Assembly: GCA_903916255.1 (NCBI GenBank)
Contig: CAIWVW010000043.1
Coordinates: 1 to 51,030, forward strand
From: an uncultured Bacteroidota bacterium
GTDB lineage: Bacteria > Bacteroidota > Bacteroidia > JABEUT01
Reading direction: 5' to 3'
Length of the DNA: 51,030 bases
Part shown: positions 4,771 through 48,767 of the stretch, in pieces
Position numbering within the stretch: the stretch's first letter is position 1
Layout: each line of letters opens with the position of its first letter
The notes under the pieces: generated by a model
Told to the model about the DNA's origin: nothing
Databases searched by the model: none
The model's input: the letters and a program-made list of their open reading frames with translations, nothing else
Translations under genes and position numbers: made by a program

Positions 4771-5229
4771 TTATTGTTCGGAAGGAGGAGTTTTCGGATT
4801 CTTTATCCGGATGGCTTTTATTTGATTAAAGTTTAACTTTTCCTGTACAGAGGGAAACGATAACTGTCCATATAAAAGACTATCCTTGGCAAACATGGTG
4901 CGGAAAAGAAGCCGTTTCTTGTCGTCGTCTTTAGTAGTTATTATAGCCACAGTATTAACATATACGTTAATCAGTTTTGTATTACCTGCTTTATCATTAC
5001 ATGTAATTTGCTGTAAGCCGTTATTAAAGTATTTGGTTAACACTATTACATCCCAATATTTGTGATTATAGGCAGCCGCAGTGTCTTTTATTTTGGATAG
5101 CTCCGTATGCAGGTTATCGGCACTCATATAATATGAATTGTAGCAGGATTGCAGGGAAGCAAGGATGTAAAAGAGGGAGAGATATTTTAGGGTTTGCTTG
5201 AGCACGGAGCAAAAGTAGGGTAATAGCAT
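4771..5229 (-). CDS. Hypothetical lipoprotein
   Basis: A 152-residue protein whose N-terminus ends in a lipobox-like LASLQSC (Cys about residue 29), so it is likely exported and lipidated. The mature part has charged and beta-prone segments with no motif I recognise. A pattern such as 'VQEKLNFNQIKAIRIKNPK' near the C-terminus recalls short Bacteroidota envelope lipoproteins of unknown role. The only in-frame Met ahead of the signal sequence is the one used. It lies 24 nt downstream of the 1207-residue T9SS cargo gene on the same strand and could be co-transcribed with it. Confidence 0.7.
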   Translation of the reverse strand: MLLPYFCSVLKQTLKYLSLFYILASLQSCYNSYYMSADNLHTELSKIKDTAAAYNHKYWDVIVLTKYFNNGLQQITCNDKAGNTKLINVYVNTVAIITTKDDDKKRLLFRTMFAKDSLLYGQLSFPSVQEKLNFNQIKAIRIKNPKTPPSEQ

Positions 5230-5253
5230 AAGAGAGGTTTAACCATCTAACTA

Positions 5254-8200
5254 TTATCTATTTCTTATTATCACTAATTTGCGAACATTGATTCCACCTG
5301 TGGTCTTTACCCTTAAAGAATATACACCTGATGATAATCCTTCTAAACCTAAATGTTCGCTCACATTCCCGGCTAAACGAGTTTCCGACTTACTGAAGGC
5401 TATTTGCCCTAATTCATTAATTATATCAATAGCAACATTGCTATTTTTATTCAGAAAATAATTTAAGGTAACATTTCCATTGGATGGATCAGGGTAAATA
5501 ATTAGGTTGGAAATAGAATTATTTAGATTCGAAACGCCTAATATGATTGTATTAAATCCGTTTGAAAATGACCCTGAAAGTGTTGCGCTTAAATGTCCAT
5601 GTAAATAACCTGCCGTAGGAATACAGACTCCCGATGGATTTACTGCTTCAACCGCATAGTAAGAATTAAGCGGCGGGAAAGAATCGGTATAAGTAAGAAC
5701 TGTGTATGGCACCGAATCAATCTGCACCATGGCATTCAATGCAGGGCCACGGAAAATGCGATATTCAGTTGGAATAAAGCCCATATAAGTTGTCCAGTTT
5801 AAAATATAGGCATTTACACCTGTTGTTACAGAGAGATAAATACTTGTATGTGGAGCGCTTAAGGCAGATTCACCACAGGAATCTACCGTAGAAAGCTCAT
5901 AGCTTACAGGACCCGTCAAAGGATAAGAACCAATATCAACGTATTCAGTCAGAGAATCTAAGGGCTGGGAATATATGTAGGTAAATGTGGTATCAATAGG
6001 TAACTCATACCTATAAATATTGTAATACCCCGAATCAGGAGGAGAATTTGTTCTACTCCAAATTATTTCACACTTACTGTTAGCTGTGTCTACTGTAACA
6101 ATACAAATAGGCTGAACATAATGATTAACACAAAGCACAGTGATGGTTACAGAATCTGTAAATGTTCCGCAGGCAGTAGTCACAGTACAAGTGAAGGTAG
6201 TGGTAACAGTTGGAGTGGCAAAGGTAGAGTCGGTTAAAGGATTGCTGATATAACCCGAGGGAGCCCATGAAAAGGTGGCAGGTATGTTACATCTTGCGCT
6301 TAAAATGCAACTATCACCTATGTATATTGTTGAAGGATTCCCGCGAACCCGGAGGATTGTACCTGCTTTTACTGTATCGGTAGTAGTAACACTGCATCCT
6401 GTAGAATCGTTAATGGTCACGGTATATATTCCAGCACTTAACCCTGAAATGGTATCGCTGGTTTGTCCGCCGGGAGCCCATGAGTAAGTATAAGGGGGCG
6501 CCCCCAAAGAAGGTGTTGCAGTAACTGTTCCCAAATATGATGCGCAATAGCTGGACGTGGATGTAGTGGTAATCCTAAAACAATTTACCGTTACAAGTAC
6601 CGAATCAGTAAATGTTTTGCAGGCGGTAGTGATATTACATGAATATGTTGTGGAAACCATAGGTTTTGCCCAAGTAGAATCTGCATTAGGACTTCTAACT
6701 GAACCGGAAGGTAACCAATAATATGAAGCAGCTTCATTTGAATTTGCAACGAGAAGAGTACTATCTCGCATAACAATAGTTTGCGGTGTTGCGCTAATAG
6801 TTATGGTTGGATTTGGCCTGACATTAACAAGGAAAGATTGTACTCCCTCGCAAAGTCCATTATCAGCCGAAACTTGGTAAAGAATTGATACTGTAGGGTC
6901 AACTATAATCGTGCTATCGTTTAATGTTTTAACAATAGAATCATTGGCAGCCCATGAATAATTAGTATATCCACCGCGAACTGTCAAGGTATCATATTCA
7001 CCTGGACAGATAACGTTTTTTCCTGTTATTACCGGGACAGGATAATTTACAATGCTAATAGTTTCGGAAATCGTATCATTACAATAGCCATTGGAAAAGG
7101 CCAGAGTTACAGTGTAGGTTCCTAAAGTATTATAAGTATGTGAAGGATATTCAGTTGTCGAAGTATCAAGAGGTCCGCTAGAAGGGTCTCCGAAATTCCA
7201 TAAATAGGTATGTGCATTATTATAGCCATAAAAGTATACCGCAAATCCTACACAACTGCCACTATACCCAATTGAGGCATAAACAGCAGTATCTACAGTG
7301 ACATTCAAAAAAGTATCCGCTCCGCAGCCATTATACATTTCATGCATTTTAACCTTGTATGTTCCGGGTGCAGGGTATAACCATGAAGGGTTTAGAATAT
7401 TGGTATCGTTATAGTAATTCACATTATAAAAATCCCAATCAAAAGTTCCGCCTATCGGGCTTGAAGTATTAGTAAACTGTATTGTCTGCCCGGAGCATAC
7501 TGTATTGGCAGTACAGGTGGGGTGTGGGGCAGGTCCGGCAACTTTTCCAATTGTAATAGTTAGGGTATCAGCACAGGTGGCTCCACTTATAGGGCTGCAA
7601 ACTACGCTATAAGTTCCGGTGCTGTCTATCCAAATGTTCTGTGTACTATCGCTGCCTCTAATACCATTTAGGGGCCCAGACCAGGAATAAGTAGTGGTAG
7701 GTGGGGCTGTTAGAAGAATTGAATCTTGTCCGCAAAAATTAGGAGATGAAGTAATAATAGTAAGAGGCGAACAGTTAGCATCAATATAGGCATACCCAAA
7801 ATGTCCTCCTTCGGAGCAATCAGCTACTTCAAACACAATAGTTACACATTGGCCCACATAATTCGACAAAGGAACATTTACAGTTGTCCAATTTGTGTAT
7901 TTCGTGTTACAGGGAATCCCTAAATAATGGGGATTATCATAGGTTAAACTATCAAATCCTGCCATATTATAACCTGAAACCACATTGTATTTACCACAAG
8001 AAGGAATAGTATCGCCATTTTGGTCAAGCACCACGGCACAAAAAAATGGTTGGTCGCTGTATGGATGATTTGGTTGTTGCAAAAATAAGGCGTATTGATA
8101 AGTGAGATTCGAAGTAGATGGCGTGACCAGGAATGTTTTGCTTAAAATGGCTACCCCCTGCCCATTTATCTGGCTATCTCCCAACATAGCAGAATAGTGG

Positions 8201-10251: not shown

Positions 10252-11832
10252 TTACTTCTTATATTTTTTAGCTAAATCCGTTGCAATCTTTTCTAATGTT
10301 GCCACTACATCATCAGGCAGTTTACCGGCTTTTAATTCCGATAAAACATTCTTATGCTGAGCTTCCAGTATGCCCAAGTATTCGGCTTCAAATTCTTTTA
10401 CTTTATCTAATGGAACATCTCTCAACAACCCTTTGGTTCCGCAATAAATAATAGCAACTTGCTTTTCAACGGTCATTGGGGAATATTGCGCTTGTTTCAG
10501 GATTTCCACATTGCGGGAGCCTTTTTCCAACACATATTTGGTAGCGGCATCCAAATCAGAACCGAATTTGGAGAATGCTTCCAATTCGCGGTATTGAGCC
10601 TGGTCAAGTTTCAATGTACCTGCTACCTTTTTCATAGACTTAATCTGTGCATTACCACCCACACGCGATACGGAGATACCCACGTTAATTGCAGGCCTTA
10701 CACCGGCATTAAATAGGTTACTTTCCAAAAATATCTGTCCGTCGGTAATAGAGATTACATTGGTAGGGATATATGCTGATACGTCACCTGCTTGCGTTTC
10801 AATAATAGGCAATGCGGTTAATGAACCTCCGCCCTTTACCAAATGTTTGATAGATGGTGGAAGGTCATTCATATTGCTTGCAACTGATTGGTCAGCATTG
10901 ATTTTAGCGGCACGTTCCAATAAACGGGAGTGTAAATAGAACACATCACCCGGATAAGCCTCACGTCCCGGAGGGCGGCGAAGAAGCAAGGATACCTCAC
11001 GGTAAGCCACAGCTTGTTTCGACAAATCATCATAAATAATCAACGCTGCACGGCCTGTATCGCGGAAGAATTCGCCCATAGCGGCTCCTGATAGCGGAGC
11101 AAAGAACTGCATAGGTGCAGGGTCGGCAGCGCTGGCGCACACAATAATGGTATATGGTAAAGCTCCGTTTTCATCCAGAGTACGCAACACGTTAGCTACG
11201 GTAGAAGCTTTCTGGCCGATAGCTACATAAATGCAATATACAGGTTGTCCTTTTTCGTAAAATTCTTTCTGGTTGATAATGGTATCTATAGCGATAGCGG
11301 TCTTTCCGGTTTGGCGGTCGCCGATAATCAACTCCCGTTGTCCGCGCCCGATTGGAATCATCGCATCAATAGGCTTGATACCTGTTTGAAGCGGTTCATT
11401 TACAGGCTGACGGTAGATAACCCCCGGAGCTTTACGTTCCATTGGCATTTCATATAATTCGCCGGTAATAGGGCCTTTTCCATCTATTGGATTACCCATA
11501 GCATCTACAACACGGCCCAAAAGTCCTTCGCCGGCTTTAATAGAAGCAATTTTTCCGGTACGTTTTACGGTAGCGCCTTCCTTAATATCTCCGGAAGGGC
11601 CTAACAATACAAGACCTACGTTATCTTCCTCCAGGTTAAGAGCTATACCTCTTAAGCCATTATCGAACTCAACAAGCTCTCCGGCCTGAACGCTGTCCAA
11701 TCCGAAAACACGGGCAATACCGTCACCAATTTGAAGTACTGTTCCTACTTCTTCCAATTCCTTTTCGGTCTTGAATCCTGATAACTGTTCGCGTAATATT
11801 GCAGAGACTTCTGCCGGTTTTATTTCAGCCAT
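10252..11832 (-). CDS. atpA: ATP synthase F1 subunit alpha
   Basis: A 526-residue subunit of the catalytic hexamer in the cytoplasm. It carries the nucleotide-binding P-loop GDRQTGKT (about 171-178), the segment [16 protein letters not shown] and the VSRVGGNAQ region with the Arg that reaches into the beta catalytic site. Full-length for the family. It follows atpH by 13 nt and precedes atpG by 6 nt, so translation within one message is likely. Confidence 0.98.
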
Positions 11833-11845
11833 ATCTATTTGATAA

Positions 11846-12394
11846 TTAATTTAATATATGCGTTTGATTAAAGTTTTTATTTAATTGTTTCAGTTGTTTC
11901 AGCACACTCATATCTGCTTGCCTGTTTCCAACTGTAAGCACAAACCCGCCAATAATTTTCGGGTCCGTTTTTTCAACTAATTCTATGGTAGCCTTCAGGT
12001 GATTTGTGAGTATGGAAATCATCTTTTTGCGGGTAGGCTCATCTAATTTTGTGGCCGATGTGATTACAACCGTGCTCACATTCTTAACTGTTTTATACTG
12101 GTCGATAAATTCTTCAGCTATCTTATCTAAATAAGATTCCCTTTTGTTTTTGGCCAGAAGTACTAAAAATTTATCGGTTATTTCACCCACTTCGCCTTTT
12201 AATACCGTTTTAAACGTGCTTATTTTCTTATCAGTCTTAATTAAGGGGCTTTGGAGTAATAAATGAAAGTCGTTTATTTTGCACAAATTCAGCAATTTGC
12301 GCATATCGCTATACACTTCATCCATCTTGTTATCTTCGGTAGCAAGCTGCATAAGAGACTTAGCGTAGCGGAATGCAATAGATGACTTGGCCAT
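11846..12394 (-). CDS. atpH: ATP synthase F1 subunit delta
   Basis: A 182-residue peripheral-stalk protein. It shows the N-terminal six-helix bundle start ([14 protein letters not shown]) and the C-terminal motif [21 protein letters not shown], typical of the delta/OSCP family. It links the alpha N-termini to subunit b. It lies 8 nt after atpF, between atpF and atpA as in most bacterial operons. Confidence 0.96.
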
Positions 12395-12402
12395 GGTATC
12401 TG

Positions 12403-12897
12403 TTAGTTAAGGGTAACGTCGTTTAATAAACTGTTTACCAACGCTTTTTGTTTTTCATCCGATGAAAGCTCCGTGCGCAATATTTTTTCGGCAATTTCCA
12501 AAGAAAGTTTGGCAACCTGGCTCTTCATTTCGTCAATAGCAGCCATTTTTTCACTTTGAATGACCTCACGGGCGCTTTGCATAATCTTTTCTGCTTCTTT
12601 TTGTGATGCTGCCTTTGCTTCACCAATAATACTTTCTTTGGTATCGCGGGCTTCTTTCAAAAGCTTGTCACGTTCATTGCGGGCTTCCATAAGGATGGCT
12701 TCGTTGCTGGCTTGAAGTGCCTGCATTTCTGCTTTTGCTTTTTCAGCGGAATCCAACGCATCTTGTATGGATGTTTCTCTTTCCTTTAAAGATTTAAGGA
12801 TTGGCTTCCAAGCCATTTTGCGGAGCAGGAGAAACACTACCAAAAAGGTAAGTGTCATCCAGAATATGAGCCCGATTGAAGGTACTATAAGGTCCAT
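12403..12897 (-). CDS. atpF: ATP synthase F0 subunit b
   Basis: A 164-residue peripheral-stalk subunit with one N-terminal transmembrane helix (GLIFWMTLTFLVVFLLLRKM, about 8-27) followed by a long charged, Ala-rich coiled coil (KSLKERETSIQDALDSAEKAK onward). Only one b-type gene is present, so a b2 homodimer is expected. A 122-nt gap with a strong hairpin separates it from atpE, in contrast to the tight spacing of the following genes. Confidence 0.96.
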   Translation of the reverse strand: MDLIVPSIGLIFWMTLTFLVVFLLLRKMAWKPILKSLKERETSIQDALDSAEKAKAEMQALQASNEAILMEARNERDKLLKEARDTKESIIGEAKAASQKEAEKIMQSAREVIQSEKMAAIDEMKSQVAKLSLEIAEKILRTELSSDEKQKALVNSLLNDVTLN

Positions 12898-43044: not shown

Positions 43045-44427
43045 ATGAAAAAACCTATACTATTAATTTTTGTGGTGTTTTGTTTGGGAATAATCTCCGG
43101 AAATGCGCAATATAATATCCTTCATAGTTTCAATGATACTAATGAAGGAGCCCCGCTTGGCTCGTTGGTTCTTTCCGGAAACACCTTATTTGGAATGACC
43201 GATTCAGGCGGAGTAGGTAAAATGGGAACCATATTCTCAATACACAAGGATGGTACGCATTATAAAGAACTATTGGATTTTAATGGCAGTAATGGTAAAA
43301 ATCCAGTCAGTGATTTAATTCTTTCAGGTACAACCTTATACGGTATGGTTCCTCATGGAGGAGCACACAATGACGGGTGCATTTTTTCCATTGATACAAG
43401 CGGGAACAACTATACTGATATTTACGATTTCAATATTCCTAATGGGCTAGGCCCTCAAGGTGCATTAATCATTTCAGAAGGAGTTTTATATGGAATGACT
43501 GAAGGAGGCGGCAGTGACGGTGATGGGAATGTTTTTTCAATCAGAACGAATGGCACAGGATATAAAAACCTGCATTCATTTAATGGCGCCGATGGTTGGA
43601 ACCCATATGGCTCATTACTTCTTGAAAATGGGCATTTATTCGGTACAACGCCTTGGGGCGGTACATACGGGGTCGGAAACCTTTTCTCATTAGATACAGA
43701 TGGGGCGGGATTTGATAACCTCTACCAATTTACCGGTAGCGTAGGCTACCCTTTCGGTTCTCTGCTTCTTTCAGGGGGAAGATTCTACGGTATGGTATAT
43801 CAGGGTGGTTTTCCGGGTATAGGTGGTTACATCTTTTCTATCAAAACTAATGGCAGTAGTTTTTCAGTTCTTTACAACTTTAGTGCAAACTATCCCCGGG
43901 GTTCATTAATAGTTTCCTGGACTACTTTGGTGGGAATGACCTTTATGGGGGGAACCAATAACGATGGTTGTATATTCAGTATCGATACCTCAGGAAATGA
44001 ATATAAGGATTTGTTCGATTTTGGTCCGGCTTCCGGAATATACCCACATGGTTCACTAATCCAATCTGGAAGCATATTGTATGGAATGGCTTCTGGCGAG
44101 GGCGGAGGAACTAATGGCGATGGTGTTGTTTTCAGTTTCAACGATGTTCCGCTTTCATTAACTACTACTCCATCAAACAGCTCGAATATTTCCATTTACC
44201 CCAACCCGGCTTCCAACAAAATATTCGTTACCCTTACCTCTAATCCCAATGAATCCTATTGCCAACTTTACACCCTAACAGGCCAACAAGTGTGGGTTTC
44301 AACAATTGCTGCCAATACTTCTACTTTTGAAATTCCGGTGGGTAATTTTAATAATGGCATTTACTTTCTGAAACTCCAAACCGGGGATGGAACTACTTTT
44401 GTGAAGAAAGTGGAAGTGGCAAAATAA
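43045..44427 (+). CDS. T9SS cargo with GloVer-type tandem repeats
   Basis: A 460-residue secreted protein with a signal peptide ending at ISGNAQ (about residue 21). The body is about eight tandem ~40-residue repeats of the form LHSFN-G-x-P-GSLLLSG-x-LYGMT-GG-x-G-x-IFSI-x-x-DG, known as the GloVer choice-of-anchor tandem repeat. They probably form a beta-propeller or solenoid. A type A sorting domain closes the protein (ISIYPNPASNKIFVTL to TTFVKKVEVAK). The function of the repeat is unknown. It converges with the acylation cassette, with 6 nt between stop codons. Confidence 0.88.
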   Translation: MKKPILLIFVVFCLGIISGNAQYNILHSFNDTNEGAPLGSLVLSGNTLFGMTDSGGVGKMGTIFSIHKDGTHYKELLDFNGSNGKNPVSDLILSGTTLYGMVPHGGAHNDGCIFSIDTSGNNYTDIYDFNIPNGLGPQGALIISEGVLYGMTEGGGSDGDGNVFSIRTNGTGYKNLHSFNGADGWNPYGSLLLENGHLFGTTPWGGTYGVGNLFSLDTDGAGFDNLYQFTGSVGYPFGSLLLSGGRFYGMVYQGGFPGIGGYIFSIKTNGSSFSVLYNFSANYPRGSLIVSWTTLVGMTFMGGTNNDGCIFSIDTSGNEYKDLFDFGPASGIYPHGSLIQSGSILYGMASGEGGGTNGDGVVFSFNDVPLSLTTTPSNSSNISIYPNPASNKIFVTLTSNPNESYCQLYTLTGQQVWVSTIAANTSTFEIPVGNFNNGIYFLKLQTGDGTTFVKKVEVAK

Positions 44428-44433
44428 AATACG

Positions 44434-45462
44434 TTATTTATTGCCATACATTTTTGCCATTAAATAATCGGCAACCGGAGGACGATAGTGGGTATTATCG
44501 TAATAATTATGAAAATCGTTTGTAATGGAATTTATACCCGAAAAATCATATACGTTCTCTTTCCCAAATATGGCATATAGCGCTTTCAGGTCGGTACTGT
44601 CTATTTTTAATTGGTTGTACAACGGGCCTATTACCACTTTAAATTGGCTTTTATCATTCTTCAAAATATCAGCCATTTCCTGAAGCATAACATGCTGTGT
44701 ATCTGAAATAACTTTTGTCCAATATTTTTGGTATGTTGTATCTCTCTTATAAAAAAACTGCATTGTTTTCGGGGTATAAAATTTTGCCGGGTCAGTTTTT
44801 ATTAAATCATCGAAATGTTTAAACTGCATTTCATTGTACTTCCCAATATATTCAATAGGAACATCATTCAGCAGGTGGTCATTCTTCATGTAATCCTTAA
44901 TCTTATGTGTTATCATAAAATCGCAATAGGCCTTGAAAAAATCGCGGGAAAGAAAGGTTTTAAAAAACTCCAGTTCGAACGAAAACCAGCTTCCGTCAAT
45001 TAAAGCCGGATGGCTCATAAATAAATGCCCTGTTTTTTCCTTTATTTGAGACAGCGTTGAATTATCAAGGATAATTAAGGCATAGGAAATAGTTACATGG
45101 TATTTATTCAGGAATTTCATTTTCTGATATATGCCCCATAATGATTCATTGAACGCGTCGAAATGAAAGCAGTTATCGGTATGTATATATTTTTCCCAGG
45201 TATTAATCTGGTAAAACCGCGAGGTTGAATTACCGAATATGAATGCATTGTAATTGTACTTTTTAGAGTTATTCAGATATGTTTGGGTGCTTACATAATC
45301 TCTGTTAAGTGTAACGTATGAAGGGGTTCCGGGAGGGTAGTATGAATCGTAATGCCTTACAACTTTAAATGGGTCGAGATAAATGTAGGCGCCCAAAATA
45401 ATCAACACCGGAAACGCCAGTAATGCAGATTTATAGAAAAATTTTAAATATTGTTTCCTCAT
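44434..45462 (-). CDS. Membrane-anchored SGNH/DltD-like protein of the acylation cassette
   Basis: A 342-residue protein with one N-terminal transmembrane helix (SALLAFPVLIILGAYIYLDPF, about 12-32) and a periplasmic domain. The domain shows an SGNH-hydrolase-like pattern: the candidate nucleophile Ser at about residue 79 in IFGNSTSR, and D322/H325 in YYDNTHYRP near the C-terminus, spaced as the usual D-x-x-H. The topology and partners resemble DltD and AlgX/AlgJ, which take part in the last step of acyl transfer outside the inner membrane. The role is inferred; sequence alone does not show whether it transfers or removes an acyl group. It starts 2 nt after the MBOAT gene. Confidence 0.7.
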   Translation of the reverse strand: MRKQYLKFFYKSALLAFPVLIILGAYIYLDPFKVVRHYDSYYPPGTPSYVTLNRDYVSTQTYLNNSKKYNYNAFIFGNSTSRFYQINTWEKYIHTDNCFHFDAFNESLWGIYQKMKFLNKYHVTISYALIILDNSTLSQIKEKTGHLFMSHPALIDGSWFSFELEFFKTFLSRDFFKAYCDFMITHKIKDYMKNDHLLNDVPIEYIGKYNEMQFKHFDDLIKTDPAKFYTPKTMQFFYKRDTTYQKYWTKVISDTQHVMLQEMADILKNDKSQFKVVIGPLYNQLKIDSTDLKALYAIFGKENVYDFSGINSITNDFHNYYDNTHYRPPVADYLMAKMYGNK

Positions 45463-45464
45463 TA

Positions 45465-46943
45465 TTAAAACTGAAAATAAATAAACTGGCGATGTTCATA
45501 TACACCCCAAAACATAATTGTAAAAAGCAATGAATAGTAAATGGCCCAGCGCACAATGGGCGGTTTTAGGCTAATAAACTCCCGCATGCTGCCCCTTTTT
45601 TCTTGATAGTAATGCACTGCCTCCAAAAAGAAGATAAGCAGAACAGAGAAATAAAAATCCTTTGAATCGATTCCCAGGCTAACCAAGGTGCTTGAAAAAT
45701 AGTGTAAGCCAAAATGCCAGCCCTTAAAAATGCCGGGTATTAAATTCAATGCTATGCTTATTCTTTTTGCCCTGAAAAATATCATAGCTAAACAAACCAG
45801 GGAGAATACCAAAAACTTATCTATAAGCCCGGAAAGTGCAGGAAACCTTGAAAGGCCTGTAAATTGTTCCAATCCCTCTCTCCTATTCCTTGTTATGGTT
45901 GCAAATACAAGATAAAGGCCATGCAATCCGCCCCATACAACATATGTCCAGTTGGCTCCATGCCAAAGTCCGCTTATTAAAAAAACCAGAAATACGTTAA
46001 TATATAATTTCAATGCCCTGTTGCCCTTTCTTTTACTGAATGAAATGGATAAAGGGTAAAAGATATAATCGCGAAACCAAGTGGTTAATGAAATATGCCA
46101 TCTGTTCCAGAATTCGGCTATTGTTTTAGCCTGAAAAGGGTTGTTAAAATTCTTCATAAGGTCAAAACCCATAACTTGCGCCGCACCTATTGCAATATCT
46201 GAATAACCTGCAAAATCACAATAAATTTGGAATGTAAAAAATACTACGCCAATCACTAGAGCTAACCCCTGGAAATTTGATGAATGGTCAAAAACATTGT
46301 CGGCAACACGAGCCAGCCTGTCAGCAATTACAACTTTTTGAAACATACCCCATGCCATAAGCTTAAGCCCACTTACAACCCGTTGGTAATCGAACATATG
46401 TTTTTCATGAAACTGGTGTATTAAATTTTGCGGCCTTTCAATTGGCCCAGCCACCAATTGAGGGTAAAACATAACATATAAAGCATATATGCCAAAGTGC
46501 CTTTCGGCTTTTTGGTTGCCACGGTAAACCTCAATAGTATAACTCATAGCCTGAAATGTATGGAACGATAATCCTAAAGGAAGAATAATATAAAGATACG
46601 GTATAGGTAAAGTATTAATATGCGCCAGATGCAATAAGGCATCCATGTTACCTACAAAGAAATTATAATACTTAAAGACACACAGCACCCCTACATTGGC
46701 CACAATGCTGAGTATCAGAAAATATTTCCGTTTTTTGCCCTCCGCATTTTCTATCATTATACCTGCAAAGTAGTCGATTACAATGGTAAACAGCAGTATA
46801 AATATATACACCGGAATAAACGCCATATAAAATATACAGCTTGCAACAAGCAGGTGAAACCACCTGAATTTGTGGGGCAAAAGGAAATATATAGCTGTTA
46901 CTATAGGGAAAAAGAAAAGAAATTCAAATGAATTGAATAACAT
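45465..46943 (-). CDS. MBOAT-family O-acyltransferase (AlgI/DltB-like)
   Basis: A 492-residue polytopic membrane protein. It begins MLFNSFEFLFFFPIV as AlgI-type proteins do and has about ten to twelve helices. The two conserved His residues of MBOAT proteins are at about 283 (FWNRWHISLTTWFRDYI) and 328 (LISGLWHGANWTYVVWGGLHG). These proteins pass an acyl group from a cytoplasmic donor through a membrane tunnel to an acceptor on the outer face. The donor here is presumably the acyl carrier protein encoded just upstream. The acceptor (polysaccharide, LPS or other) is not encoded nearby. No isolated acetyl-CoA-linked partner is seen. Confidence 0.94.
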   Translation of the reverse strand: MLFNSFEFLFFFPIVTAIYFLLPHKFRWFHLLVASCIFYMAFIPVYIFILLFTIVIDYFAGIMIENAEGKKRKYFLILSIVANVGVLCVFKYYNFFVGNMDALLHLAHINTLPIPYLYIILPLGLSFHTFQAMSYTIEVYRGNQKAERHFGIYALYVMFYPQLVAGPIERPQNLIHQFHEKHMFDYQRVVSGLKLMAWGMFQKVVIADRLARVADNVFDHSSNFQGLALVIGVVFFTFQIYCDFAGYSDIAIGAAQVMGFDLMKNFNNPFQAKTIAEFWNRWHISLTTWFRDYIFYPLSISFSKRKGNRALKLYINVFLVFLISGLWHGANWTYVVWGGLHGLYLVFATITRNRREGLEQFTGLSRFPALSGLIDKFLVFSLVCLAMIFFRAKRISIALNLIPGIFKGWHFGLHYFSSTLVSLGIDSKDFYFSVLLIFFLEAVHYYQEKRGSMREFISLKPPIVRWAIYYSLLFTIMFWGVYEHRQFIYFQF

Positions 46944-46984
46944 AGCTGTTTAGTAATCAGTTATGGTTTAAAACAAATTTAATT

Positions 46985-47227
46985 TCAGGCAGGTTTATCC
47001 AGTTTTTTCTCTAAAATATCTACAAGCGCTTTAACAGAATCAATCCGTTGAATTTCACTTACAGTAAACGAAACCTTATAGTGTTCCTGCAACTCGCTTA
47101 TCAGGGTAATGTGATTTATCGAATCCCACAGCGGCAAATCCTTTTTAACAGTATTTTCGCTTATGGTGGCTTTTTTACCTAAAGCATTATAAAACACTTG
47201 TTGCAGTTCTGAAATGGTTGGTTTCAT
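46985..47227 (-). CDS. Acyl carrier protein of the cassette
   Basis: An 80-residue acyl carrier protein. The phosphopantetheine attachment Ser is at about residue 36 in LPLWDSINHITLISELQ, the DS-x-x-H/L motif. The surrounding four-helix pattern fits a carrier protein of the DltC/PCP type rather than a fatty-acid-synthesis ACP, since the motif is DSINH rather than DSLDT. It overlaps the end of the FkbH-like gene by 41 nt in another frame, which points to strict translational coupling, and is followed by the MBOAT gene 41 nt later. No dedicated phosphopantetheinyl transferase is nearby. Confidence 0.9.
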   Translation of the reverse strand: MKPTISELQQVFYNALGKKATISENTVKKDLPLWDSINHITLISELQEHYKVSFTVSEIQRIDSVKALVDILEKKLDKPA

Positions 47228-48767
47228 TTTTTATTTTATTATAAAAGTTTTCAGCAGGTATATTTTTTTCCGTCCGGATAAATTTCACAGATGCTAGTTG
47301 CAGGCTATTTTCCTTAATATCCTGTAAAACAAAATTTAAAAAGCTATCCTCTATTTTTTTCCCCAATGCTCGGCAACTCATCAGGAAATTTTCCAAAACT
47401 ACTTCTTTTTTATTTCCTGCGGGCTTAATCATAATTAGGCCAACTGTTCCGTAATCCCCAAACTTATCGGAAACAGAAAGGGAATATAGCCTTCCTCGGT
47501 CAACTATGAAATTATTTAGCTGTTCACTAGTATAGGGTTGTTTATTAAAATTAAACTGATTTGTTTTTCCGGTCATTTGAGATAACCTTTCCAAATCAGC
47601 AGTATCATTAAGCCTGATATCCATTTTAATTTCAAGGCTCTTGATAAACTCATCTATATTTTCATAGTTCTGTTCTTCACCGGCCCTTTGTTGTTGCTTA
47701 ATATATTGTTCTGTCTTTGCGATATCGTCCTTCAGTACCAGTTTTTTTTTGAATTCAAACCTGTTTATTAGTGCAATAAAATTAGTGTAATCTTCGGTGA
47801 ACTCAATACAAGTAATTCCCTTCAAGCTATTGCTTACAAAATCTAATTCATATTTATTGTCATCTACAAAAATAAATGAATCAGTGCCTACATTAAGCTC
47901 TGCGGCTATTTCCTTCATGTTTGCCACTTTATCGTTCCAGTTTATTTTCCGGATAATAAAGTCATCCCATTTCAGCACAAATTTTTTCTTTTCAAATGCT
48001 TCCTGAACATCCTTTTCATTATTTTTCGAGCAAATGCAGAGCAGGAAGCCTTCCTCTTTTTTCCCTTTTAAAAACTCTTGGAAATGATAATGAATAATAC
48101 CTTCAGCATCTTTATTGCAATATATGCCATTAATACCGTCTTCTCCAACAATTCCTTTCCAAAGGGTGTTATCACAATCTAAAACAATAACTTTTTTTTC
48201 CTCGCCGAACAACCATTCTGACTGGTTTACAACCGCTTCGGCTATTGCACCGATTGCCTTCTTTGTGTAGGGCATTTGGTACAAATGCCCTACAGGGTAG
48301 TTGTAGCAGTTATTTTCGCCCAGCTTTTTAAGAATGGAAAGAAAATCAAAAACAAAAATATTTGAACGCTCCAACAATGAACTGATTTCTGCTGAAAACA
48401 AATAAGCCACATCGAAGGAGTTTCCAAATGAACCTTTAAAAGGGGGTGTTTTGAATGCCCCTGTTAAGGAATTGCTGACAAGTATTGTTATATTGCTTAG
48501 CTGAGACGAAAAATGAAGGAGCGTATTACAAAACACTTTCTGCCACTCCGAAGGACGGTTATGGAATACCTGGTCGGAATGGATAAAAAGAACATCTATT
48601 CCTTTAAAATCATCTGATTCAACCGATAACATCTTGCTGACAATATCCTCTTGATACGAAAACATGCAAGATATATTTCCGCTTGAAATAACGTCTATCT
48701 CTTTTGCAATATGGTCAAAAGTAACATCCGAAATAACAAACATCTTGATTGGCCTGTTTCTATACAC
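47187..48767 (-). CDS. FkbH-like HAD-IIIC protein, probable glyceryl-carrier-protein synthase
   Basis: A 526-residue three-part protein. Residues ~1-185 look SGNH-like. About 190-330 is a HAD domain with motif I VLDCDNTLWKG (D197, C198, D199), motif II Ser (about 247, ICSKNNE), motif III Lys (about 280, NWNDK) and motif IV VDDNKYE (about 301-307). About 370-526 is a GNAT-like domain with SCRALGKKIEDSF. FkbH proteins take 1,3-bisphosphoglycerate, remove phosphate and load glyceryl onto a carrier-protein thiol. That activity is established for polyketide FkbH proteins; its use here is inferred from the adjacent ACP. All HAD motifs appear intact. Start 48767 or the in-frame Met at 48743 are both possible. 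Confidence 0.88.
   Translation of the reverse strand: MYRNRPIKMFVISDVTFDHIAKEIDVISSGNISCMFSYQEDIVSKMLSVESDDFKGIDVLFIHSDQVFHNRPSEWQKVFCNTLLHFSSQLSNITILVSNSLTGAFKTPPFKGSFGNSFDVAYLFSAEISSLLERSNIFVFDFLSILKKLGENNCYNYPVGHLYQMPYTKKAIGAIAEAVVNQSEWLFGEEKKVIVLDCDNTLWKGIVGEDGINGIYCNKDAEGIIHYHFQEFLKGKKEEGFLLCICSKNNEKDVQEAFEKKKFVLKWDDFIIRKINWNDKVANMKEIAAELNVGTDSFIFVDDNKYELDFVSNSLKGITCIEFTEDYTNFIALINRFEFKKKLVLKDDIAKTEQYIKQQQRAGEEQNYENIDEFIKSLEIKMDIRLNDTADLERLSQMTGKTNQFNFNKQPYTSEQLNNFIVDRGRLYSLSVSDKFGDYGTVGLIMIKPAGNKKEVVLENFLMSCRALGKKIEDSFLNFVLQDIKENSLQLASVKFIRTEKNIPAENFYNKIKNETNHFRTATSVL

Follow-up and report, generated by a model that had tools for sequence, protein, structure and literature searches.

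The locus studied here resembles systems in which a membrane-bound O-acyltransferase (MBOAT) works with an SGNH-type partner, such as PatA-PatB peptidoglycan O-acetylation, AlgI-type alginate and cellulose acetylation, and the Dlt system (DltA-DltB-DltC-DltD-DltX) that D-alanylates teichoic acid. In PatA, the acyl group is attached to the tyrosine of a C-terminal FxYxxF hexapeptide, and the acyl-tyrosine then feeds the SGNH partner; in Dlt this motif is carried by the microprotein DltX, and the non-Dlt systems have no carrier protein (PMC12148441). FkbH-like enzymes are held to make glyceryl-ACP, a loaded acyl carrier protein (ACP), and have been described for polyketide pathways only (PMC7489565). 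In a 51,030-nucleotide stretch of DNA from an uncultured Bacteroidota bacterium (contig CAIWVW010000043.1), the whole of which we call the window, the minus strand at 44434-48767 encodes, in one operon, an FkbH-domain HAD protein, an ACP, an MBOAT and a membrane-anchored protein of SGNH type. We think it probable that the four together make up an O-acylation system of the MBOAT-SGNH kind that is fed by a carrier. The observations that carry this reading are the gene content, the conserved catalytic residues, a shuttle motif in the MBOAT, the recurrence of the cassette and a correlation between an MBOAT loop and linkage to a carrier.

An initial annotation, made from the DNA letters, had placed four minus-strand open reading frames here, and all of them are present:

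47187 to 48767, minus strand: FkbH-domain HAD protein (loader; TIGR01686), 518 aa if the start is the ATG at 48743
46985 to 47227, minus strand: acyl carrier protein (PF00550), with Ser36 as the phosphopantetheine site
45465 to 46943, minus strand: MBOAT acyltransferase (PF03062), with His283/His328, a C-terminal FIYFQF (Tyr489) and a carrier-type loop without LGG
46014 to 46097, minus strand: codons of the MBOAT loop, residues 283-310, HISLTTWFRDYIFYPLSISFSKRKGNRA, a candidate carrier-docking site from alignment with DltB
45468 to 45485, minus strand: codons of the FIYFQF acyl-shuttle hexapeptide, MBOAT residues 487-492, recognized by sequence and conservation
44434 to 45462, minus strand: probable SGNH-type membrane-anchored transferase, with Ser79/Asp322/His325, recognized by invariant residues, a profile match and an AlphaFold model

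The FkbH and ACP genes overlap by 41 bp, the ACP and MBOAT genes are separated by 41 bp, and only 2 bp lie between the MBOAT and SGNH genes. Catalytic residues are intact in all four genes and internal stops are absent. A Pfam and open-reading-frame check of the operon found no AMP-binding gene, and the operon contains no tailoring gene.

The FkbH protein is encoded by a single copy in the 3.74-Mb genome and scored 256.7 bits against TIGR01686 (cut-off 146.65). The HAD motifs DxDxT (D189, D191, T193), SKN (S239-K240-N241), K (K272) and DD (D294-D295), as well as an SCR motif (S456-C457-R458), were invariant in 12 relatives, in agreement with the intact motifs read by the initial annotation. 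The protein is 69% identical to the copy in a sister species (G010), and comparison with that copy makes the ATG at 48743 a likelier start than the GTG at 48767. The ACP passed PF00550 narrowly (22.9 bits, cut-off 20.8), but its family profile clearly matches solved ACPs (best 2lml, 2.5e-24), and D35-S36, which includes the serine previously described as intact, is invariant among 11 relatives. Its score against the DltC equivalog model was below the cut-off (NF003464, 17.8 against 68 bits).

The MBOAT (PF03062, 92 bits) has DltB (6bug, 9.7e-30) as its nearest solved relative. Both histidines expected from the initial annotation, His283 and His328, align with His289 and His336 of DltB. The comparison with the DltB hidden Markov model turned out negative, as the protein was far under the equivalog cut-off (TIGR04091, 172.6 against 375 bits). 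The last six residues, FIYFQF, had been overlooked before and match the FxYxxF acyl-shuttle of PatA and DltX; F487, I488, Y489 and F492 are invariant across nine cassette MBOATs, and the motif F(I/L/V)Y..F is present in nearly all FkbH-linked MBOATs. In the window cassette, a fused shuttle and a carrier occur together. Because the MBOAT ends in FIYFQF, the acyl group would probably move from the ACP to Tyr489, then to Ser79 of the SGNH protein and finally to a glycan.

The fourth protein matched no Pfam or NCBIfam family, that of DltD included. In an alignment with seven cassette relatives it had only five invariant columns (G77, S79, P280, D322 and H325), and the block II glycine and block III asparagine of SGNH enzymes were outside them. 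Its profile matches the GDSL acylhydrolase 4hf7 (1e-4). An AlphaFold model from 26 sequences, which replaced an earlier 8-sequence model with a predicted local distance difference test score (pLDDT) of 49, reached a pLDDT of 94.3. It has an N-terminal helix at residues 2-29, in line with the membrane anchor proposed earlier, and in it S79 directly follows a strand while D322/H325 come ahead of the final helix, which is where an SGNH enzyme should have them. In a Foldseek search with this model, no match was below 0.001, and the matches of the highest probability (0.6-0.8, TMt about 0.5) were SGNH hydrolases. Considering the invariant residues, the GDSL profile match, the confident model and the top-probability Foldseek matches, we assign the protein to the SGNH type with moderate confidence. 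An MBOAT gene directly precedes 16 of its 17 full-length homologues (one of these MBOAT frames is partial), and a plasmid search with the SGNH protein as the query gave no matches. As a separate observation, an orphan MBOAT-SGNH pair in another genome, G005, is preceded by a gene of 209 aa (L161:6245-6874) that by eye looks like an Sfp-type phosphopantetheinyl transferase.

With Dlt, the cassette has in common a carrier-protein donor, a two-His MBOAT without LGG, an FxYxxF shuttle and a separate SGNH transferase. However, an unrelated FkbH loader takes the place of the amino-acid adenylating DltA, the shuttle is fused to the MBOAT C-terminus instead of being carried on DltX (no DltX-like gene is in the operon), the MBOAT, ACP and SGNH protein fail the Dlt cut-offs or models, and the host is a member of Bacteroidota. 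The earlier view that the four genes mirror Dlt thus held for the logic, in which FkbH replaces DltA and to which the shuttle hexapeptide and the carrier-type loop can now be added, but not for the families, as the DltB and DltC cut-offs were failed and DltD gave no match. We rejected filing the cassette as Dlt because the defining Dlt models or genes fail. PatA-PatB and the AlgI-type systems also have an MBOAT with a fused C-terminal FxYxxF and an SGNH partner. In contrast to the cassette, which has a carrier and a loader, PatA uses acetyl-CoA as the donor and no carrier protein (PMC12148441), and the MBOATs adjacent to AlgF or cellulose genes keep the LGG loop that the window MBOAT lacks. 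Polyketide FkbH or glycerate-utilisation modules (tetronate, methoxymalonyl-ACP) share the FkbH-domain enzyme and the standalone ACP, as well as the methyltransferase of some sibling cassettes, but pass the acyl group to a polyketide synthase, whereas in the cassette it would go to a membrane acyltransferase pair. Acyltransferase-3 (AT3) and AT3-SGNH systems (OatA, OafA type) likewise transfer acyl groups at the membrane to surface sugars, and an AT3 gene is found beside FkbH-ACP in G010; they belong, however, to a membrane family other than that of the window MBOAT. The open-access full text that we searched, which leaves aside subscription papers and preprints, held no description of FkbH with an MBOAT in glycan acylation. 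We rate the cassette as a new variant of MBOAT-SGNH acylation, Dlt-like in its working without membership in Dlt.

The chemistry that we infer, from the acyl group to the acceptor, would begin with FkbH, which would load a three-carbon acid as a thioester onto the Ser36-phosphopantetheine of the ACP; this acid is most likely D-glycerate derived from 1,3-bisphosphoglycerate. The MBOAT would bind the acyl-ACP at the cytoplasmic face via its PLSISF...KRKGNR loop and shift the acyl group onto the shuttle at its own C-terminus, at Tyr489. The SGNH protein would then accept the group on Ser79 and esterify an envelope glycan made elsewhere. Glyceryl is the likeliest group, because FkbH-like enzymes are held to make glyceryl-ACP in polyketide pathways and no tailoring gene is in the window; for sibling cassettes, lactyl and O-methylglyceryl are conceivable groups. 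The negative charge that had been suggested for the ester is unlikely, since the carboxylate of the glyceryl group is consumed in the ester, which would be polar but neutral.

The loop that would receive the carrier separates most carrier-linked MBOATs from the others. Carrier-free MBOATs have DYLYIPLGGN after the catalytic helix, and this is mostly missing from carrier-linked ones; the window MBOAT has PLSISF at the place of PLGGN, which is a carrier-type loop (no [IPSF]LGG). Among 77 MBOATs, the carrier-linked ones comprised 22 non-LGG and 6 LGG, compared to 3 non-LGG and 46 LGG among those unlinked (Fisher p 6e-11). Three of the six linked LGG exceptions are additional MBOATs whose clusters have a non-LGG one as well (L036, L040, L194). 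In these clusters, which have two or three MBOATs, it is the non-LGG MBOATs that come after the ACP or after its tailoring genes, and the additional one is LGG. The unlinked non-LGG exceptions are L163, which directly follows an SDR gene and lies at the end of its contig, and L158 and L159 in G010, which has FkbH-ACP elsewhere. Because the correlation was found post hoc, we examined a separate set of plasmid MBOATs, picked by MBOAT similarity and spread across genera. Non-LGG loops occurred in 4 of 4 carrier-linked and 0 of 18 carrier-free members of this set, which was separate but not fully blind because the first three carrier-linked members had been seen beforehand and were in the 77-row count. 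The four are a DltB (L294), an MBOAT with an ACP plus AMP-ligase (L296), that of Sinorhizobium meliloti (L297) and one with an AMP-ligase-ACP fusion (L319), and the 18 LGG members include MBOATs beside AlgF or cellulose genes. The plasmid locus L313 has an LGG MBOAT with FkbH about 4 kb upstream and no ACP.

In alignment, the window loop falls on the part of DltB, from His289 onward, in which the contacts to DltC lie, namely V305, I306, M309, K312 and R317 (PMC11035591); K312 and R317 correspond to K306 and R309 in the window. The loop is a candidate carrier-docking site on the basis of this alignment. We rejected the overall MBOAT phylogeny as a guide to donor type because linked and unlinked MBOATs are intermixed on it and only the FIYF[RK]F-type clade is FkbH-free. 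The L158 MBOAT of G010 (4912-6354; LGG / FIYFRF clade) is 74% identical to the window in the loop and 35% and 27% in the flanks. No MBOAT adjoins FkbH-ACP in G010, and the L158 MBOAT is distant in the genome; its loop likeness would reflect either convergence or local recombination.

Co-occurrence of the genes in relatives, on which the initial annotation had staked its reading beforehand, was found. FkbH matched in 22 of 296 Bacteroidota genomes and in 33 of 396 genomes of the class. An MBOAT was near FkbH in 3 of the 20 phylum-level loci fetched (L036, L040, L045) and in 7 of 30 class-level loci (L194, L195, L196, L197, L199, L205, L207). A same-strand MBOAT stood within five genes of FkbH in 21 of the 131 FkbH loci read, where chance would give about 0.5, a rough estimate from about 2.4 MBOATs per genome that has to be read with care, as there is some dependence among the loci and FkbH and MBOAT genes alike tend to lie in polysaccharide loci. 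The order FkbH-ACP-MBOAT-SGNH recurs unchanged at L040, L045 and L207, in three other Bacteroidota families, and a rearranged set, MBOAT-SGNH-ACP-FkbH, is on pSymB of S. meliloti; among plasmids, 40 Sinorhizobium records matched FkbH. Related clusters outside Bacteroidota were seen in Doudnabacteria (L071), Nitrosopelagicus (L093), Micrarchaeota (L111), Clostridium (L115, L122), Verrucomicrobia (L119, L129), Obscuribacterales (L127) and Desulfovibrio (L108), although the host of single contigs is uncertain because many of these cases are metagenome bins.

Some details of these relatives deserve mention. In S. meliloti 1021, the pSymB FkbH is split over two frames (L293:10656-12828), while it is one open frame in other strains, in which the SGNH gene is annotated as a TonB-dependent receptor. 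A phosphopantetheinyl transferase gene (Pfam ACPS) directly precedes FkbH in a candidate phyla radiation bacterium (L071:6275-6610), and a short gene that resembles such a transferase in sequence is on the Micrarchaeota contig (L111:1886-2203). Genes like transketolase halves and an aldo/keto reductase, judged by N-terminal sequence, adjoin the FkbH-MBOAT cassettes at L108:5725-8301 and L119:4845-6585, 11721-12572, and possibly point to another acyl group.

The two halves of the cassette are not bound to each other. G010 has FkbH and an ACP (73% identical) at the corresponding position, flanked by pntB and the TolC/HlyD genes, with an opposite-strand AT3 gene in place of MBOAT-SGNH (L006:8512-9558), a natural transferase swap. 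The closest FkbH from another genus (L052, 42%) stands ahead of genes for an ACP, for a GNAT-like protein that narrowly misses the Pfam cut-off and for a polysaccharide deacetylase. MaoC and SDR genes are beside FkbH at L009, L036, L194 and L199, and a methyltransferase is at L008, L196 and L205. Because FkbH-ACP occurs without MBOAT-SGNH in G010 and SGNH homologues occur without FkbH, the donor and transfer halves are separable, and FkbH linkage as a fixed trait was rejected. A mobile donor module, able to feed different acyltransferases, is the best description of FkbH-ACP.

Other combinations were also observed. FkbH-ACP is followed by a GNAT-like and a deacetylase-like gene at L052:4450-9089 and L101:3471-7132 (the polysaccharide deacetylase is Pfam-confirmed in L052), an arrangement which suggests N-acylation of a deacetylated sugar from the same donor module. 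Carrier-linked MBOATs with an AMP-binding ligase replacing FkbH or DltA, on a Metabacillus plasmid (L296:4069-8415) and a Sulfitobacter plasmid (L319:3108-6774), are by their gene content additional kinds of loader serving this transfer logic. In the window at 43045-44427, between pntB and the cassette and convergent to the latter, is a gene whose product, secreted and rich in repeats, has a Por secretion tail (PF18962).

This separability raises the question of whether the operon holds two independent neighbours, with the MBOAT-SGNH pair an ordinary acetyl-CoA O-acetyltransferase and FkbH-ACP giving glyceryl-ACP to another pathway. The closest SGNH relatives pair with FkbH-free MBOATs, and FkbH-ACP does without MBOAT-SGNH at the same slot of G010. 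We nevertheless consider this unlikely, as the genes form a single tight operon whose order recurs in several lineages, the LGG loop kept by carrier-free relatives about 52-60% identical to the window MBOAT is absent from the latter, and it is again a membrane acyltransferase, the AT3, that occupies the same place in G010. A number of results do weigh against a carrier-fed system. FkbH is near none of the 17 full-length homologues of the window SGNH protein and an ACP near only one, and because these homologues pair with FkbH-free MBOATs, the transfer half often works independently of this donor. On the MBOAT tree, linkage to FkbH is labile, with 12 changes compared to a shuffled mean of 16.3, and the FkbH-linked clusters L008, L196 and L197 have LGG MBOATs only. 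A phylogeny-controlled test of the loop gave 2.4 pairs for and 0 against, of 6, and was underpowered with so few pairs. There are also no glycan genes within the window, in agreement with the initial annotation.

It is also conceivable, but quite unlikely, that the system is carrier-fed with a group other than glyceryl, because FkbH loads another acid or because glyceryl is converted, for example to lactyl or O-methylglyceryl, by enzymes encoded elsewhere. The MaoC dehydratase with SDR, or the methyltransferase, lies within sibling cassettes at the loci given above, and Campylobacter flagellin bears a di-O-methylglyceric acid derivative while its glycan island includes an FkbH-domain gene (PMC3958885, PMC7099621). 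The window operon, in contrast, has no tailoring gene, and the described product of FkbH is glyceryl-ACP. No acceptor genes are nearby and the cassette is missing beside pntB in the genomes G002, G005 and G009, as might be the case if it were an inactive remnant or acylated a small molecule or lipid instead of a glycan. However, all four genes have intact catalytic residues without a single internal stop, and the SGNH partners of described systems act on envelope polymers; we regard such an explanation as highly improbable.

The carrier-fed MBOAT-SGNH system is therefore the reading we prefer. Beyond it, we tentatively suggest, as an idea that may well prove wrong, that FkbH-ACP is a plug-in module that draws three-carbon hydroxy acids from glycolysis and supplies them for the acylation of surface glycans across both bacteria and archaea. 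The group would be set by tailoring genes (glyceryl, O-methylglyceryl, or lactyl via MaoC and SDR), and the short MBOAT loop would set the use of acyl-carrier or acyl-CoA, so that the donor class could be read from the MBOAT sequence. In Gram-negative bacteria and archaea, the cassette together with its relatives would provide a counterexample, in which a carrier donor is joined to a fused Tyr shuttle. They would supply a source for glycerate-type esters on bacterial glycans, the biosynthesis genes of which we did not find described in the open-access literature searched, and S. meliloti pSymB offers a genetically tractable model. If the loop signature is true, the acyl donor of many uncharacterised MBOAT-SGNH pairs would become predictable from sequence.

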